A stretch of 5,242 nucleotides of DNA from an uncultured Eubacteriales bacterium. GTDB taxonomy: Bacteria; Bacillota_A; Clostridia; Christensenellales; Aristaeellaceae. Both the position numbers and the translations under genes were made by a program. Positions 1 through 4,120 of this stretch are shown in pieces. The stretch covers positions 1 through 5,242 of the forward strand of contig CACYNZ010000268.1 in assembly GCA_902775835.1 (NCBI GenBank). Reading direction: 5' to 3'. The stretch's first letter is position 1. Every line of letters starts with the position of its first letter. The notes below the pieces were generated by a model that made no database searches, had not been told where the DNA came from, and saw nothing but the letters and a program-made list of their open reading frames with translations.

Positions 1-1200
1 CATCTGGACCCGGAACTCAACAGTCCGGACATGGCGGCTCAGGCCAGCGCAGCCGGCGAGCGCATCCGTGCACTGGAGGAAAAGGCGCAGAAGACAGAGG
101 AAACACTGAATACTCTGCAGTCGGGCTTCACGTCCAGTCTGGAACAGTGCCGGGACCGGGAACAGACATGCCGTGGCAATCTGGCCAAGAGCCTGGAGGA
201 AGCGCGGGAACAGACGGAACAGGCCCTGAAGGATGTAAACGCCAGGCTTTCCGAAGCGGACCGTGCAAGAGCGGAACTGAACAGCCAGGTGCAGGCGCTG
301 GAAGCACAGGTCAGTGGCGCGGCAGGGAATGAGCTCAACAGGATTGCGACGCAGCTGCAGGAAACCCGGAAAAACCTGGCGACGCATATCCAGGCGGAGG
401 CAAATGCCAGGGAAGAAATGCGCAGTGACATGGACAGCCTGCGGAAAGCGGCGGAAACAGCCTCAGACAGCGCGAACAGAGTGCGCGAGGATCTGCAGAG
501 GCAGCAGAGCGGCCTGGCACATGCCGTGGACCAGCGCATGGACGGATTCGGCGAGCGCCTGGCGGGGCTGGAAACCCAGACCCGGAACCTGGAAAACCAG
601 GACAATATTCTGCGCGAAAACGTGGAAAAGCTCAGGGCAGACTGCCGGGAATGGGAAAAACTGGACAGCGCGGTAGAAAACCTGGAAAAGGCGCTGCGGG
701 AGCTTCAGGGCGGAAACGGCAATGTGCAGACAGATCTGCAGACCCTGGCAAGACGGGTGGAGGAATGCATGCGCAGCATTGACATCCTGAACCAGAGCGC
801 CCTGGCCATGTCGGTGCACGGGCACAGACCGCCGCCCATGCACCGGGAAGATGGAATCCGGGAACAGCTGGAACATCTGCGGGAAAGCCAGGGACGGCTT
901 CGGGACCTGATTTCCGGCTGCGTGCGGCGGGATCAGGGACGGCAGAACATCGGAAAGATCCTGGGCATCGGCGAGGACGGAAGCGTCCGTGCCGTGGACC
1001 CGCAGCTGGCCGGTCAGGTGCAGGCGGACTGGCTGGAAACGGACGAGACCCGGGCTTCCTATGTGCGCAACAAGCCCTTCAGAATGCGCAGCGGCTACCC
1101 CAGCTGCGACGGCATCATCCTCTACGCGGAAGACCGGACACCCTATCTTCTGCGGGTGAATGATACCGGGGACCTTACGGTGAGCGCGTTCCGGGAATAA
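1..1200 (+). CDS. Phage fibre protein, long coiled coil (5' end outside window)
   Basis: The frame is open from base 1 to the TAA at 1198-1200 (399 visible residues). The first ATG, at 31, has no Shine-Dalgarno, so the true start is upstream. Numbering from base 1, residues 1-30 (LDPELNSPDMAAQ and after) resemble the 'DPTLs..G.aADA.avG' linker that follows the N-terminal anchor in many phage fibres. About residues 18-310 are almost continuous heptad-like helix rich in Glu, Gln, Arg, Ala and Leu, broken by GGNGN near 239 and HGHRPPP near 274. The C-terminal end holds DQGRQNIGKILGIGEDGSV (311-329), then QADWLETDETRASYVRNKP (341-359), a motif common in clostridial phage fibres, then a short beta-rich tail ending LTVSAFRE. 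The last two parts recur in the next gene. The likely role is a virion fibre or spike, with an elongated trimeric stalk inferred from the coiled coil. Whether it sits on tail or head cannot be decided here. Confidence 0.75.
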   Translation, partial: HLDPELNSPDMAAQASAAGERIRALEEKAQKTEETLNTLQSGFTSSLEQCRDREQTCRGNLAKSLEEAREQTEQALKDVNARLSEADRARAELNSQVQALEAQVSGAAGNELNRIATQLQETRKNLATHIQAEANAREEMRSDMDSLRKAAETASDSANRVREDLQRQQSGLAHAVDQRMDGFGERLAGLETQTRNLENQDNILRENVEKLRADCREWEKLDSAVENLEKALRELQGGNGNVQTDLQTLARRVEECMRSIDILNQSALAMSVHGHRPPPMHREDGIREQLEHLRESQGRLRDLISGCVRRDQGRQNIGKILGIGEDGSVRAVDPQLAGQVQADWLETDETRASYVRNKPFRMRSGYPSCDGIILYAEDRTPYLLRVNDTGDLTVSAFRE

Positions 1201-1295: not shown

Positions 1296-2060
1296 ATGCA
1301 GCTTAAGGAGATCTACAACTACAAGGCGGCGGACACGGGACTGGACACCAGGATCACGGCACTGGAAAACGCCATGGGCACCGACGGCGAAGGCACCGTG
1401 GATGCAAGAATCCAGGCGGCCATTGACGCGGCAAAGGCGCCTCTGGAAAGCGCGGACACGGCATTGGATGGCCGGGTCACCACGCTGGAGGGTCAGGTAA
1501 ATACCCTGAACGGGGACGCCCAGACCCAGGGTTCGGTAAAGCAGCAGGTGGCGACGGCGGTGGCCGGCATTGTGGCCAATGCGCCGGAAGCCTATGACAC
1601 CCTGAAGGAGATCGCTGACTGGATTTCCGGGGACGTGAGCGGCGCGGCTGCCATGAACACCCGGATTACCGACAACGCCGGCGCCATTTCCGTGCTCAAC
1701 GGTGACAGTAGCACTGAAGGCTCCGTGGCAAAGCAGGTGGCGGATGCCAGGGCTGTCCTTGAACAGGCGGACAGCGCATTGGATGCGCGCCTCCAGGTGC
1801 TGGAGGGGGACGAGGACACGGAGGGCTCCGTGGCCGAAGCCAAGGCCGTGGCAGATCAGGCCCTTGAGGAAGCACGGGCCTGCGTGGCCATTGATCAGGG
1901 CACGCCAAATGCCGGGCATATGCTCTGGGTCAGCGGCAGCGGTGAAGTCACCTCGGAAGTGCCGACGCAGATCATGCTCATGGACAGCGCCAGGACCAAA
2001 ACCTTTGTGCTCACGATCGGCACGGAAGGCGCGCTGACGGTGTCCGAGGTGGTGGCCTGA
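1296..2060 (+). CDS. Repeat-containing phage fibre protein
   Basis: 254 residues from an ATG with a near-consensus Shine-Dalgarno. The protein is acidic and built from repeated short helices. Three copies of an L-[NE]-G-D-x-x-T-x-G-S-V motif occur at residues 71-81, 134-144 and 169-179. ALD-[GA]-R-[VL] segments at 56-61 and 161-166 each lead into a TLEG or VLEG turn. Residues 95-111 (NAPEAYDTLKEIADWIS) match the 'APE.(F/Y)DTLKEI.DWI' signature known from phage head-fibre and tail-fibre proteins. The C-terminus (DQG..N.G..L at 200-210, then LTVSEVVA) mirrors the end of the upstream fibre gene. No signal peptide or membrane segment is seen. It is probably a second virion fibre, or a partner of the first. 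Its place on the virion (tail tip, baseplate or capsid surface) cannot be told from the sequence. Confidence 0.75.
   Translation: MQLKEIYNYKAADTGLDTRITALENAMGTDGEGTVDARIQAAIDAAKAPLESADTALDGRVTTLEGQVNTLNGDAQTQGSVKQQVATAVAGIVANAPEAYDTLKEIADWISGDVSGAAAMNTRITDNAGAISVLNGDSSTEGSVAKQVADARAVLEQADSALDARLQVLEGDEDTEGSVAEAKAVADQALEEARACVAIDQGTPNAGHMLWVSGSGEVTSEVPTQIMLMDSARTKTFVLTIGTEGALTVSEVVA
1506..1832 (+). repeat. Three diverged coding repeats, GD-x-x-T-x-GSV motif
   Basis: The motif is encoded at 1506-1538 (LNGDAQTQGSV), 1695-1727 (LNGDSSTEGSV) and 1800-1832 (LEGDEDTEGSV). The first two copies are each followed by KQQVA or AKQVAD. Spacing is 63 residues, then 35. The nucleotide sequences have drifted more than the protein, so this is an old internal duplication within the fibre gene. 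Confidence 0.7.
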
Positions 2061-2086: not shown

Positions 2087-2212
2087 TTGATTCGATCCTA
2101 TCTGTGTGTGTTTCGTGACGGCCGGACCGACAGCATGGAAGCGGAAAGCTTTGAGGAAGTGCTGGAGCGCCTGGGCGGGGAGGAGGACCTGTGGCTGGTG
2201 ATCTGGGACTGA
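2087..2212 (+). CDS. Small protein of unknown function (41 residues)
   Basis: A TTG start at 2087 is preceded by GGAGGA (2075-2080), with a spacing of seven bases after the core, and the frame runs to a TGA at 2210-2212. The product begins MIRSYLCVFRDGRTDSMEAE and ends LWLVIWD. It looks like a compact beta-beta-alpha-beta fold: a hydrophobic strand, a DGR turn, an acidic helix (SFEEVLERLG) and a final hydrophobic strand. No transmembrane segment is seen. The last 22 bases overlap the start of the endolysin gene, and its codons at 2177-2186 supply that gene's ribosome site, which suggests coupled translation. An in-frame ATG at 2132 is a worse start because it has no Shine-Dalgarno. I do not recognise the family. 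A role tied to the fibre or the lysis cassette is only positional guesswork. Confidence 0.6.
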   Translation: MIRSYLCVFRDGRTDSMEAESFEEVLERLGGEEDLWLVIWD

Positions 2213-2940
2213 CCGGCGCGGACCTGGCCCGGGAAGCCCGGAAGCTGGCGGGGATGGACATTCCCTATACGCCGGGCGGCGAAAGCCTGAAGGGCATGGA
2301 CTGCCAGGGCCTTGTGGAGTATGTGATCCGCTTTCTCGGCGGAAAGGCCAGATGGAAGGGGTCAAACGCCATGTACCGCAGCTGCGTATGGCGCGGGACA
2401 CCGGAACAGTGCCGGCAGCAGTTCGGGCAAATCCCTCTGGGCGCCTGTACCTTCATCTGGAAGGATGACGGCGGCGAACGGGAGAGGGGCTATATGGACG
2501 GGCTCGGGAACGCGGTGCATGTTGGCATATACCTCGGGGACAGGTGCGTGCACGCGTCAAATTCCCGGGGCCGGGTCTGCTTTTCGGATTTTGCCGGCAG
2601 AAGCATCCCGGGCGGCTGGAACCGCGTTGGACTGCTGCCGGGGATTGACTACCTTGGGAAAGGGGGAAGAGAAATGGCAGAAGTGTTTTCGGAAAACGGC
2701 CGCGGCGTGCGCATGCGCGTGCGGCCCTCGGAGACCTCCGCGGTGATCCGGAAGCTGGATGTGGGCACGGAGGTGGAGGTGCTGGAGGACCTGGGCATCT
2801 GGCTGCATATCCGCGCACAGGGCCAGGACGGCTATATGATGGCCGACTTTGTCCGGGAAAGCGGGGACATGGACCTTGAGGACAGAATCGCGGCGCTGGA
2901 AAAGCGCCTGGACATGCTGGAGAGGCGGATGAAGAATTGA
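2191..2940 (+). CDS. Endolysin: NlpC/P60 peptidase, SH3b domain, C-terminal coiled coil
   Basis: 249 residues from a GTG start with GGGGAGGAGG at 2177-2186. Residues 10-155 form a NlpC/P60-type cysteine peptidase, a family that cleaves peptide stems of peptidoglycan. The nucleophile is C38 in GMDCQGLV, H110 lies in HVGIYLG, and H121 in CVHAS is the likely third polar residue. The Cys-to-His distance of 72 residues includes an extra region (NAMYRS...GQIPLGA) that I recall from clostridial phage lysins. Residues 163-222 form a bacterial SH3 domain (VRMRVRPSE, LDVGTEVEVLE, GYMMADFV), expected to bind cell wall. Residues 226-247 are a short heptad coiled coil. There is no signal peptide, so release should depend on a holin, and a candidate lies two genes downstream. 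A second in-frame start at 2674 could yield the SH3b part alone. A virion-borne lysin is possible but less likely given the neighbours. Confidence 0.9.
   Translation: MAGDLGLTGADLAREARKLAGMDIPYTPGGESLKGMDCQGLVEYVIRFLGGKARWKGSNAMYRSCVWRGTPEQCRQQFGQIPLGACTFIWKDDGGERERGYMDGLGNAVHVGIYLGDRCVHASNSRGRVCFSDFAGRSIPGGWNRVGLLPGIDYLGKGGREMAEVFSENGRGVRMRVRPSETSAVIRKLDVGTEVEVLEDLGIWLHIRAQGQDGYMMADFVRESGDMDLEDRIAALEKRLDMLERRMKN
2659..2676 (+). promoter_or_regulatory. Internal Shine-Dalgarno and ATG inside the endolysin gene
   Basis: AAAGGGGG (2659-2666) is followed after seven bases by an in-frame ATG at 2674. The same AAAGGGG signature precedes the holin (3324-3330) and small terminase (3627-3634) starts. 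Initiation here would give an 88-residue product, 2674-2940, made of the SH3b domain and the coiled coil without the peptidase. The site falls in the linker YLGKGGREMAE between the two domains. Internal starts that make free wall-binding subunits are known in several Gram-positive phage endolysins. Use of this one is inferred. Confidence 0.5.
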
Positions 2941-3341
2941 CAGGTATGGATATGCTCAAGACCGCCGGGGTGGCGGCCTCCTCCATTCTCTCCATCTGGG
3001 GCGTGATCCGCCTCTGGGAAAGCCTGGGCCGGCATGTAAGGAAAAAGCGCTCCGAGCCCTTTGAGGAAATATCGGGGCGTCTTGAGCACATGGAACGTAC
3101 GCTGCAGGCCTTGGACGCGAGTCTCCTGGCCCAGGAGGACGCGCTGGCCGGGGTGCAGTGGCAGTTCCTGAACCGCTTCTATGTGCAGTATGTGGAAAAG
3201 GAAAAGGCCTGCCCCATGGAAGTGAAGCAGAACATTGAGGAAATGTACCGGCTCTATGTGCGTGACGGCAAGCGCAATCATGTGGCGGCGGACTATCTGG
3301 ACCGGCTCATGGCGCTGCCGGTGAAAGGGGACAGGCATTGA
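2937..3341 (+). CDS. Membrane-anchored coiled-coil protein of the lysis cassette
   Basis: 134 residues from a TTG whose last two bases begin the endolysin TGA stop (TTGA overlap). A GGAGAGG at 2919-2925 is 11 bases upstream, so coupling or reinitiation is likely. ATGs at 2946 and 2952 are alternatives without a ribosome site. Residues 9-27 form one hydrophobic helix (TAGVAASSILSIWGVIRLW), followed by a basic patch (RHVRKKR, 32-38), which predicts the C-terminus in the cytoplasm. Residues 40-72 are a likely coiled coil. The end (QNIEEMYRLYVRDGKRNHVA, then LDRLMALP) resembles the 'NIENLY..Y...G.NGVMDDI...LALP' tail of small uncharacterised proteins in Firmicutes phage lysis regions, a comparison from memory. 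It could be a holin partner, an antiholin-like regulator or another membrane factor. The function is not known. Confidence 0.7.
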   Translation: MTGMDMLKTAGVAASSILSIWGVIRLWESLGRHVRKKRSEPFEEISGRLEHMERTLQALDASLLAQEDALAGVQWQFLNRFYVQYVEKEKACPMEVKQNIEEMYRLYVRDGKRNHVAADYLDRLMALPVKGDRH

Positions 3342-3625
3342 AGTATGTGCAGTTTTCCAAGCGCATGGTGCTCCTGGTGGTGTCCGCCGTCACCTGCCTT
3401 ACGGGCGCGGCCATGATCCTGTGCTATCTCTCGGCGCATTTTCCGGAGATCGTGAAGCTGGTGGACGCGTACATCGGGTTTGCCACCATCTGCTTTGCGG
3501 CCTATTCCGGGAACTCCGCCGTGGAGAAATACCTGGTCCGGCGCTACCATGAAAATGCGCAGCGGCAGGAAAGCCAGGAGCATGAACATGACCGGGACAT
3601 ATGGGAGGACCATGCCATGGGCTGA
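3338..3625 (+). CDS. Probable holin, two transmembrane helices
   Basis: 95 residues from a TTG that overlaps the preceding stop (TTGA), with AAAGGGG at 3324-3330 giving a spacing of seven. Residues 10-32 (MVLLVVSAVTCLTGAAMILC and on) and about 41-57 (LVDAYIGFATICFAAYS) are hydrophobic helices separated by a short turn, HFPEIVK. The tail (63-95) is strongly charged and rich in Glu, His and Arg. This topology, the small size and the place directly after an endolysin without signal peptide fit a class II-like holin, which forms lesions in the cytoplasmic membrane at the end of infection. The N-terminus carries K2, K8 and R9 before a second Met at 10, a layout reminiscent of dual-start holins, but no Shine-Dalgarno precedes M10. 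With a second membrane protein just upstream, which of the two is holin and which accessory is not settled. Confidence 0.7.
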   Translation: MKYVQFSKRMVLLVVSAVTCLTGAAMILCYLSAHFPEIVKLVDAYIGFATICFAAYSGNSAVEKYLVRRYHENAQRQESQEHEHDRDIWEDHAMG

Positions 3626-3640
3626 GAAAGGGGGACAGGA

Positions 3641-4120
3641 ATGGGCGCAGACAAGGAAGCGCCGTGCCTGATCATCCTGGAAGAGGACGGCGCGTGCCGC
3701 GGAAGGAAGCGGGAGGAACTGGAAAAGCTCACCGACTGCGTGCTCAACAGTCCCGCCACGAACGCGGATCCGGAAGTGGTGAAGTTCTGGAAGAAGCACG
3801 GGATTGACCGGGAGCATGTGACGGTCATGATGAGCATTGAGGCGCAGCTGGCCATGCGCGCCGAGCGCGGGGATGATCACGCCCTGTCTGTCATGCTGGG
3901 CCTGGCCGGCGCGGACAGCCGGATCGTGCTCAACTGGCACCGTATGGAAATGGCCGAGAAGCGCCTGAAGCTGGAGGAGGAAAAGATGCGGCGCATGGCG
4001 GACCGGGAAGAGGGAAGTGCGGGCAGCGTGAGCGATCTGCTCTCGTCCCTTGCCTCCGCGCTGGACGCGCCGCCCAGGACCCGGGAGATCCAGGAGCTGA
4101 TAAGCGGTGGCGGACTATAA
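3641..4120 (+). CDS. terS: Probable terminase small subunit
   Basis: 159 residues from an ATG with AAAGGGGG (3627-3634), six bases upstream. Terminase small subunits recognise the packaging site on phage DNA and hand it to the large subunit. The call rests mainly on position: the large subunit begins inside this gene with a 14-base overlap. The sequence also fits a clostridial phage family I recall, with N-S-P-x-x-x-A-D-P-E-V-V-K-F-W-x-x-H-G-I-D (36-56), then M63-M64, A74-x-x-G-D (74-78) and a helical stretch M85-LGLAG-A91. Residues 99-124 are a highly charged helix (EMAEKRLKLEEEKMRRMADR), probably for oligomerisation. The C-terminal REIQELISGG is a likely contact for the large subunit. No classic helix-turn-helix is obvious. 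An unrelated protein that merely precedes the terminase is the alternative. Confidence 0.68.
   Translation: MGADKEAPCLIILEEDGACRGRKREELEKLTDCVLNSPATNADPEVVKFWKKHGIDREHVTVMMSIEAQLAMRAERGDDHALSVMLGLAGADSRIVLNWHRMEMAEKRLKLEEEKMRRMADREEGSAGSVSDLLSSLASALDAPPRTREIQELISGGGL

Follow-up and report, generated by a model that had tools for sequence, protein, structure and literature searches.

Does the lysin gene of this locus specify the full-length enzyme alone, or is a second protein, a free SH3b plus coiled-coil subunit, also translated from a start codon within it, as the original prediction held? The window, i.e., the whole stretch of 5,242 nucleotides analyzed here, is a piece of a phage or prophage genome. 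Its host probably belongs to the gut Clostridia, because the nearest genome relative, a rumen Clostridia MAG (L085), and the nearest terminases, those of human fecal phages and Clostridioides phages, both point there.

Table. Features of the window, with positions counted from its first nucleotide.
Feature	Positions	Strand	Details
Coiled-coil-rich ORF	31-1200		
Tail-fiber-like ORF	1296-2060		Upstream of the lysin gene
41-aa ORF	2087-2212		Overlaps the lysin start by 22 bases; includes the lysin SD
SD of full-length lysin, GGGGAGGAGG	2177-2186	+	4 nt before GTG 2191; energy −15.4, rank 4 of 463
Full-length lysin (NlpC/P60, SH3b, C-terminal helix)	2191-2940	+	249 aa, 27.6 kDa
NlpC/P60 catalytic part	2191-2646	+	Alignment A1, AF2 model, fold search
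Internal SD, AAAGGGGG	2659-2666	+	In the NlpC/P60-SH3b linker; energy −15.5
Internal start ATG (residue 162)	2674-2676	+	7 bases after the SD, in the lysin frame
Predicted second product (SH3b and helix)	2674-2940	+	88 aa, 10.1 kDa
SH3_3 domain	2704-2853	+	Residues 172-221 of the full-length protein; Pfam
C-terminal helix	2875-2934	+	Residues 229-248; AF2, block pLDDT 57-60
Two R-hxxhE motifs, heptad register	2884-2922	+	RIAALE, residues 232-237; RLDMLE, residues 239-244
Downstream ORF	2937 (TTG) or 2946 (ATG) to 3341	+	N-terminal hydrophobic stretch (by reading)
Holin-like small membrane protein	3338-3625	+	Assigned by reading of the sequence
ORF in the place of the small terminase	3641-4120		No family match
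Large terminase	from 4107		

Relatives of the ORF ending at 3341 directly follow the lysin in L085 and L088, with one more in L013. In three loci (L085, L088, and L001), a relative of the 3338-3625 ORF, for which no holin family match was found in Pfam or PHROG, lies 3′ of the lysin. L085 and L088 share the order of a lysin followed by two small ORFs. As regards an endolysin versus a virion-associated role, the context consists of these two small ORFs, the second of them holin-like by reading, and of the tail-fiber-like ORF upstream, and in PHROG the catalytic part matches a minor tail protein profile best. The 41-aa ORF has neither a Pfam or PHROG match nor a relative in the loci searched. 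The coiled-coil-rich ORF has a relative at L085:2596-3822 (31% over 442 columns), which is also upstream of the lysin there. No relative of the lysin was present in the 13,152 bases examined of the 46,204-base contig of the terminase-closest phage (L139, 63%), or in the 7,424 bases examined of H3/L140, the terminase-nearest record of the phage collection.

In the lysin, both NLPC_P60 and SH3_3 score above the Pfam cut-offs. In alignment A1 (27 sequences), Cys38 (2302-2304) is nearly invariant and His110 (2518-2520) is invariant, and from the family these 2 residues are the predicted NlpC/P60 active-site pair. The AlphaFold model, built from 27 sequences (mean pLDDT of 85.6), displays a catalytic domain, a low-confidence linker at residues 157-160, an SH3b that begins at about residue 161, and a free-standing helix at residues 229-248, and the fold search matched the lysin to NlpC/P60 structures, including LytE, SagA, and a Clostridioides difficile autolysin. 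Pfam, the model, and the fold search thus concur on a single catalytic domain followed by a predicted wall-binding domain, with an in-frame internal start and its SD lying between the two, which is the arrangement of a Type II iTSS endolysin, a term we take from PMC12203907 (here and below, published work is cited from the accessible parts of each paper).

The predicted signal is indeed found where it had been placed: AAAGGGGG occupies 2659-2666, seven bases before an in-frame ATG at 2674 and at the peptidase/SH3b linker, and the frame opened by this ATG encodes the expected 88 residues (10.1 kDa), in which SH3_3 is recognized at E=1e-9. The proposed likeness to the signals of the small terminase and holin genes holds as well, since AAAGGGGG has only 2 copies on both strands of the window, the other one at 3627, before the ATG of the 3641 ORF, and AAAGGGG also stands before TTG 3338. 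We ranked all 463 ATG, GTG, and TTG codons on both strands of the window by the pairing of their upstream bases with the anti-SD, the letters of which we presume to be of the Firmicute type. The highest ranks went to the 2087 ORF (−16.0, the top SD of the window), ATG 2674 and the start of the 3641 ORF (−15.5 each), and the lysin GTG (−15.4). ATG 2674, tied for rank 2 of 463 and the strongest among codons not starting a presumed gene ORF, thus resembles a true gene start. The supposed superiority of the internal signal over GTG 2191 was borne out only in part: the internal site is superior in its start codon (ATG versus GTG), its spacing (7 nt versus 4 nt), and the weaker RNA structure predicted around it (−12.1 versus −26.9 kcal/mol over 75 nt), but not in SD pairing, and the notion of a stronger internal SD was dropped, the energies being equal (−15.5 versus −15.4). 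When the seven upstream residues were recoded synonymously with the codon usage of the window, 12% of 20,000 draws reached the observed energy; given the peptide, the codon choice of the window gene alone is unremarkable (P=0.12) and suggestive only. The window gene by itself cannot decide the matter; relatives were therefore fetched, and it is the family comparison that decides.

The comparison was based on 138 loci (some contigs being represented twice under different ids), mostly on viral contigs, which together with the window yielded 112 distinct ORFs with the motif, after 19 loci without the motif and 8 identical ORF copies were left out; one search step used the best 80 of 122 relatives, and the closer alignment A2, rather than A1, was used for the profile search of genome contigs. 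The 75 distinct SH3b-type ORFs were reduced to 65 at <80% identity. We defined a site as an in-frame start with an SD of −8.5 or stronger between codons −10 and +1 relative to the SH3b start. Such a site is present in 50 of the 65 homologues, with SD energies of at most −10 in 47 and at most −12 in 38, and the start codon is ATG in 35 sites and GTG in 15. The same test in frames +1 and +2 returned 14 and 1 sites, respectively. Synonymous recoding that kept the protein gave a mean of 30.1 sites of 65 and a maximum of 38 over 300 sets, a null in which the amino acids of the site, including Met and Val, are fixed; the original prediction had asked for conservation beyond what the linker protein requires, and 50 of 65 goes beyond it. 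Windows of equal size elsewhere in the same ORFs contained sites in 2%-17% of cases, except for 28% at +58 codons, near the C-terminus, with the control windows at −2 and +4 overlapping the junction.

The position of the sites is equally constrained. In 40 of 50, the ATG or GTG precedes the first SH3b column by 1-4 codons; in 30 of 50, 7-8 nt separate the end of the best AGGAGG-like word from the start; and position −12 is G in 94% and position −9 in 84% of the sites (n=50). Of 171 codons that follow an SD of −10 or stronger at the junction, 46 are start codons, versus 49 of 844 elsewhere, a 4.6-fold excess (Fisher 3e-14, uncorrected for overlap and kinship). All 7 SH3b-type loci missed by the first parser, which are among the 19 loci without the motif, have the site, with SD energies from −11.8 to −16.9; 3 of these (L069, L080, and L081) are <80% identical to the counted members and to each other, and the other 4 form a group near L015. 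Among database proteins, Met is found at positions −7 to 0 of SH3b in 20 of 35 (near-copies included), against 0.22 expected. It is this comparative evidence that takes the case beyond chance, and the family very likely has a conserved Type II internal start from which SH3b is made as a free subunit.

The 15 homologues without a site in the tested interval fall into 3 sets. Six have a Pro-rich linker and a YTVxIPxLTxxQAxxLxxxYP-like C-terminus (L049, L068, L070, L074, L077, and L079), 5 end directly after SH3b (L013, L026, L048, L058, and L091), and 4 carry a longer tail (L005, L019, L088, and L090). A good start lies further upstream in the linker of L048, L091, and L019, and a weaker one in that of L005 (GTG, −9.4, one codon outside the interval), so that the count of 50 of 65 is conservative. 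According to the original prediction, random loss of the signal would speak against a functional start; the losses do not look random, 11 of the 15 site-less homologues also being without a tail of the usual type, a pattern to which shared ancestry may contribute. Two further observations concern these and other unusual members. The YTVxIPxLTxxQAxxLxxxYPG-like motif follows SH3b in the 6 homologues named above and a similar one follows PG_binding_1 in L067 and L084; this motif may represent another wall-binding or assembly element. L090 and P0015 have a long linker insertion and no strong internal start near SH3b, with a two-motif coiled coil retained.

Site and tail tend to co-occur. With tails defined by rule as at least 18 residues not of the YTVxIP type, and with 3 ORFs cut by contig ends left out, 45 of 50 homologues with a tail have the site versus 2 of 12 without (p=1.5e-6). 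The regular expression had put L007 and L077 in the wrong tail class, and after both were moved by hand the numbers are 46 of 50 and 1 of 12 (p=3e-8). In relatives that share the type of catalytic domain but end in PG_binding_1 by Pfam (L001, L033, L040, L067, L076, L084, and L089), an in-frame start at −8.5 or stronger after the catalytic domain is present in only 1 of 7 (Fisher p=0.002), the stretch searched being the whole region after the catalytic domain as opposed to 12 codons in the SH3b set; the exception, L033, has one in-frame GTG with an SD of −10.9 in the tail, and the other 6 have none. In a phylogeny of the catalytic part that comprised 72 rows, the 7 PG_binding_1 relatives among them, there are 11 changes of the site and 10 of the tail, but no more than 3 independent pairs fall on starred, well-supported branches (sign test p=0.25, with the 7 PG_binding_1 rows counted as having neither site nor tail), and thus the link between site and tail may reflect shared ancestry.

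The tail of the window lysin, DLEDRIAALEKRLDMLERRMKN, has a regular heptad pattern with two R-hxxhE motifs seven residues apart, RIAALE and RLDMLE both following Arg(g)-h(a)-x-x-h(d)-Glu(e) in heptad register. According to the literature, this motif directs the formation of parallel three-stranded coiled coils, albeit not without exceptions (PMC3653964, PMC6173795). Two such motifs are also present in L005, L085, and L090 and, by reading of A1, in each of P0006 and P0007, and one is present in L035 and L047; other relatives have tails that read as ELxxIYDxIGxxLG-like or beta-plus-helix-like. L005 and L090 share the two-motif coiled coil but have no start in the tested interval, and thus the link between coiled coil and internal start is not a strict one. 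Tail helices were modeled for the window and for L014, as single chains and with helix pLDDT of about 50-60, and were read from sequence in the other homologues. The model of the L014 subunit, which has a different tail (mean pLDDT of 76.9), places the first SH3b strand just after the internal start, followed by a low-confidence loop and then a separate C-terminal helix. The separate helix in both models would fit a helix in need of partners. A trimeric assembly of the window lysin is possible, if somewhat less likely than not.

The region downstream of the catalytic domain also appears to be mobile. From residue 138 on, the protein P0002 is identical to the window lysin at 111 of 112 positions, with 58 identities in the preceding 110 columns, which suggests a recent swap of linker, SH3b, and coiled coil. 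The break in the P0002 match to window positions 2602-2937 falls just before GGWN. The linker with the internal start, SH3b, and the coiled coil seem to travel as a unit, because P0002 is near-identical from the linker on, unlike in the catalytic part; it is possible that P0002, represented here by its protein sequence, comes from a chimeric assembly, its contig being short (1437 bases). Among the loci L097-L138, mostly viral contigs of about 9-15 kb, many encode a relative that has the catalytic part only (166-223 aa, no SH3b), and the six-frame ORFs of 41 catalytic-only loci, in the DNA examined, include no separate SH3b ORF of the lysin kind. A tblastn search with the 88-aa product found no relative in viral contigs. 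The homologues L087, L092, and L093 come from MAGs labeled Succinivibrionaceae, Fibrobacter, and Bacteroidales, odd labels for a lysin of the Gram-positive type, which may reflect either binning errors or a wider host range.

We propose that the window gene encodes a two-product endolysin. Ribosomes initiating at GTG 2191 would produce the full-length NlpC/P60-SH3b enzyme, and ribosomes initiating separately at ATG 2674, with its own SD, would produce a free SH3b-helix subunit. The short chains would supply SH3b domains and attach to the full-length chain via the helix that both have in common, and the extra binding domains per enzyme would tighten its hold on the wall, as has been argued for known cases (PMC9430671). 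We regard initiation at the internal start as highly probable and the two-product endolysin as a whole, enzyme and subunit from one frame, as quite probable; that the short form assembles with the enzyme is somewhat favored. Conservation strongly supports the initiation step; joining through the helix and tighter binding are what we infer beyond it. A bolder extension, possible but rather doubtful, is that SD, start, SH3b, and tail form one exchangeable cassette in a large family of gut phage lysins, in which the swappable tail would set the number of SH3b domains per catalytic chain and lineages that lose or replace the tail would tend to lose the start as well; the window lysin would then be a mixed-chain coiled-coil trimer, unlike the known assemblies built through binding domains.

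Could the signal exist without a second protein? Linkers rich in Gly, Lys, and Glu are encoded by GGG, GGA, AAA, and GAA, and an SD-like run could be a mere by-product of such a linker beside a chance Met, a reading compatible with the 12% of synonymous draws that match the energy in the window and with the 30 of 65 sites that recoding of such linkers alone yields. Pinto et al. predicted internal starts in 51.5% of endolysin genes versus 15.2% of portal genes, four being confirmed, and hence false positives exist (PMC9430671). We nevertheless consider this explanation improbable: the observed 50 of 65 exceeds the highest of the 300 recodings, even if Met and Val at the site are taken as given, starts after a strong SD are more than fourfold commoner at the junction than elsewhere, and all 7 uncounted loci, 3 of them independent, agree. 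It has also been proposed that SD-like sequences pause ribosomes, and the run could delay elongation between the two domains, giving the catalytic domain time to fold before SH3b, with no initiation at all. The location of the site at this border throughout the family would suit such a role, but a pause needs no start codon at 7-8 nt, and the start-codon excess after a strong SD at the junction favors initiation; moreover, both ATG and GTG are in use, and the comparable border in 6 of the 7 PG_binding_1 relatives is without a site. Pausing is thus very improbable. Hardly any credence can be given to the site being a disused relic of two once-separate genes that became fused, which the catalytic-only relatives and the apparent mobility of the SH3b module with its linker (P0002) might evoke: at such divergence a relic is expected to decay, yet the SD, its spacing, and the start codon persist in linkers of varying length and sequence, and the DNA examined of 41 catalytic-only loci offers no separate SH3b ORF of this kind.

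A more serious alternative accepts the short product but keeps it apart from the enzyme: the free SH3b-helix protein would act by itself, e.g., on wall sites or debris to which it binds, thereby tuning the speed of lysis, or would form homo-oligomers only. Not every two-product lysin forms complexes; the 2 products of LysJavan488, the short form of which retains a catalytic domain, do not associate (PMC9430671). In one assay, wild-type CTP1L was repressed by added free CBD, and knocking out the RBS of CS74L or CD27L left lysis unchanged (PMC4777826). We nonetheless judge this alternative unlikely, given that 6 of the 7 listed cases with a CBD-only product were shown to form heteromers, the seventh, LysLW32, not being analysable (PMC9430671), that the same helix is present on the full-length enzyme, and that tail and site tend to occur together. 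Should the short product exist, a gene annotated with the full-length lysin alone lacks one of its proteins, and the subunit could be lost from recombinant lysins made with codon-changed genes, a loss for which the codon-optimized CTP1L gene is a described case (PMC4777826). Some natural members of the family have the internal start and others do not, so that the role of the short form is testable by comparing related lysins, and the link between start and tail, if true, would be a simple rule to predict which lysins assemble.

The kind of system described here is already known; what appears to be new is the NlpC/P60 plus SH3_3 family and the co-occurrence of the internal start with a C-terminal tail. 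In the open-access literature (subscription papers being outside its scope), our search turned up no publication on this family, nor any on two-product endolysins with coiled-coil tails; the terms "internal translation" and "isoform" are absent from the accessible main text of a survey of modular lysins in the human gut phageome (PMC13284279), and NlpC/P60 is absent from the domains in the Fig. 1 legend of PMC9430671. The clostridial and enterococcal precedents invoked by the original prediction are documented for CTP1L and CS74L (PMC4777826) and for LysIME-EF1 (PMC7098653). Like the window lysin, CTP1L, CS74L, and CD27L have one catalytic and one wall-binding domain, a linker SD, and an in-frame GTG or ATG, the TG of which is kept by their relatives; the AAGGGGG that precedes GTG in CTP1L and CS74L is almost the same as AAAGGGGG of the window (PMC4777826). 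By contrast, these 3 lysins associate through the binding domain itself (PMC9430671), whereas in the window SH3_3 is followed by a separate helix with trimer motifs. Internal starts also yield a free binding domain in the enterococcal lysins LysIME-EF1 and Lys170, which require assembly with the short form for full activity but combine 1 full-length with 3 short chains in a tetrameric ring formed through the binding domain (PMC7098653, PMC9430671); LysIME-EF1 further differs in having a CHAP domain, and the word "coiled" is absent from the accessible text of its paper (PMC7098653). LysP7951 of a Streptococcus thermophilus phage likewise has a second product consisting of the binding domain only, and its lytic activity was seen only with the multimer, but the stoichiometry is 1:5 and the domains are different (PMC9430671). 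Finally, Ply2638A of a staphylococcal phage resembles the window lysin in its SH3b-containing short form from an internal start, which was shown during infection, and phages with one isoform release their progeny late; however, this lysin is of Type I, with a short form that retains an amidase domain and pairs through it (PMC12203907), whereas the predicted short form of the window lysin is of Type II, with SH3b only.
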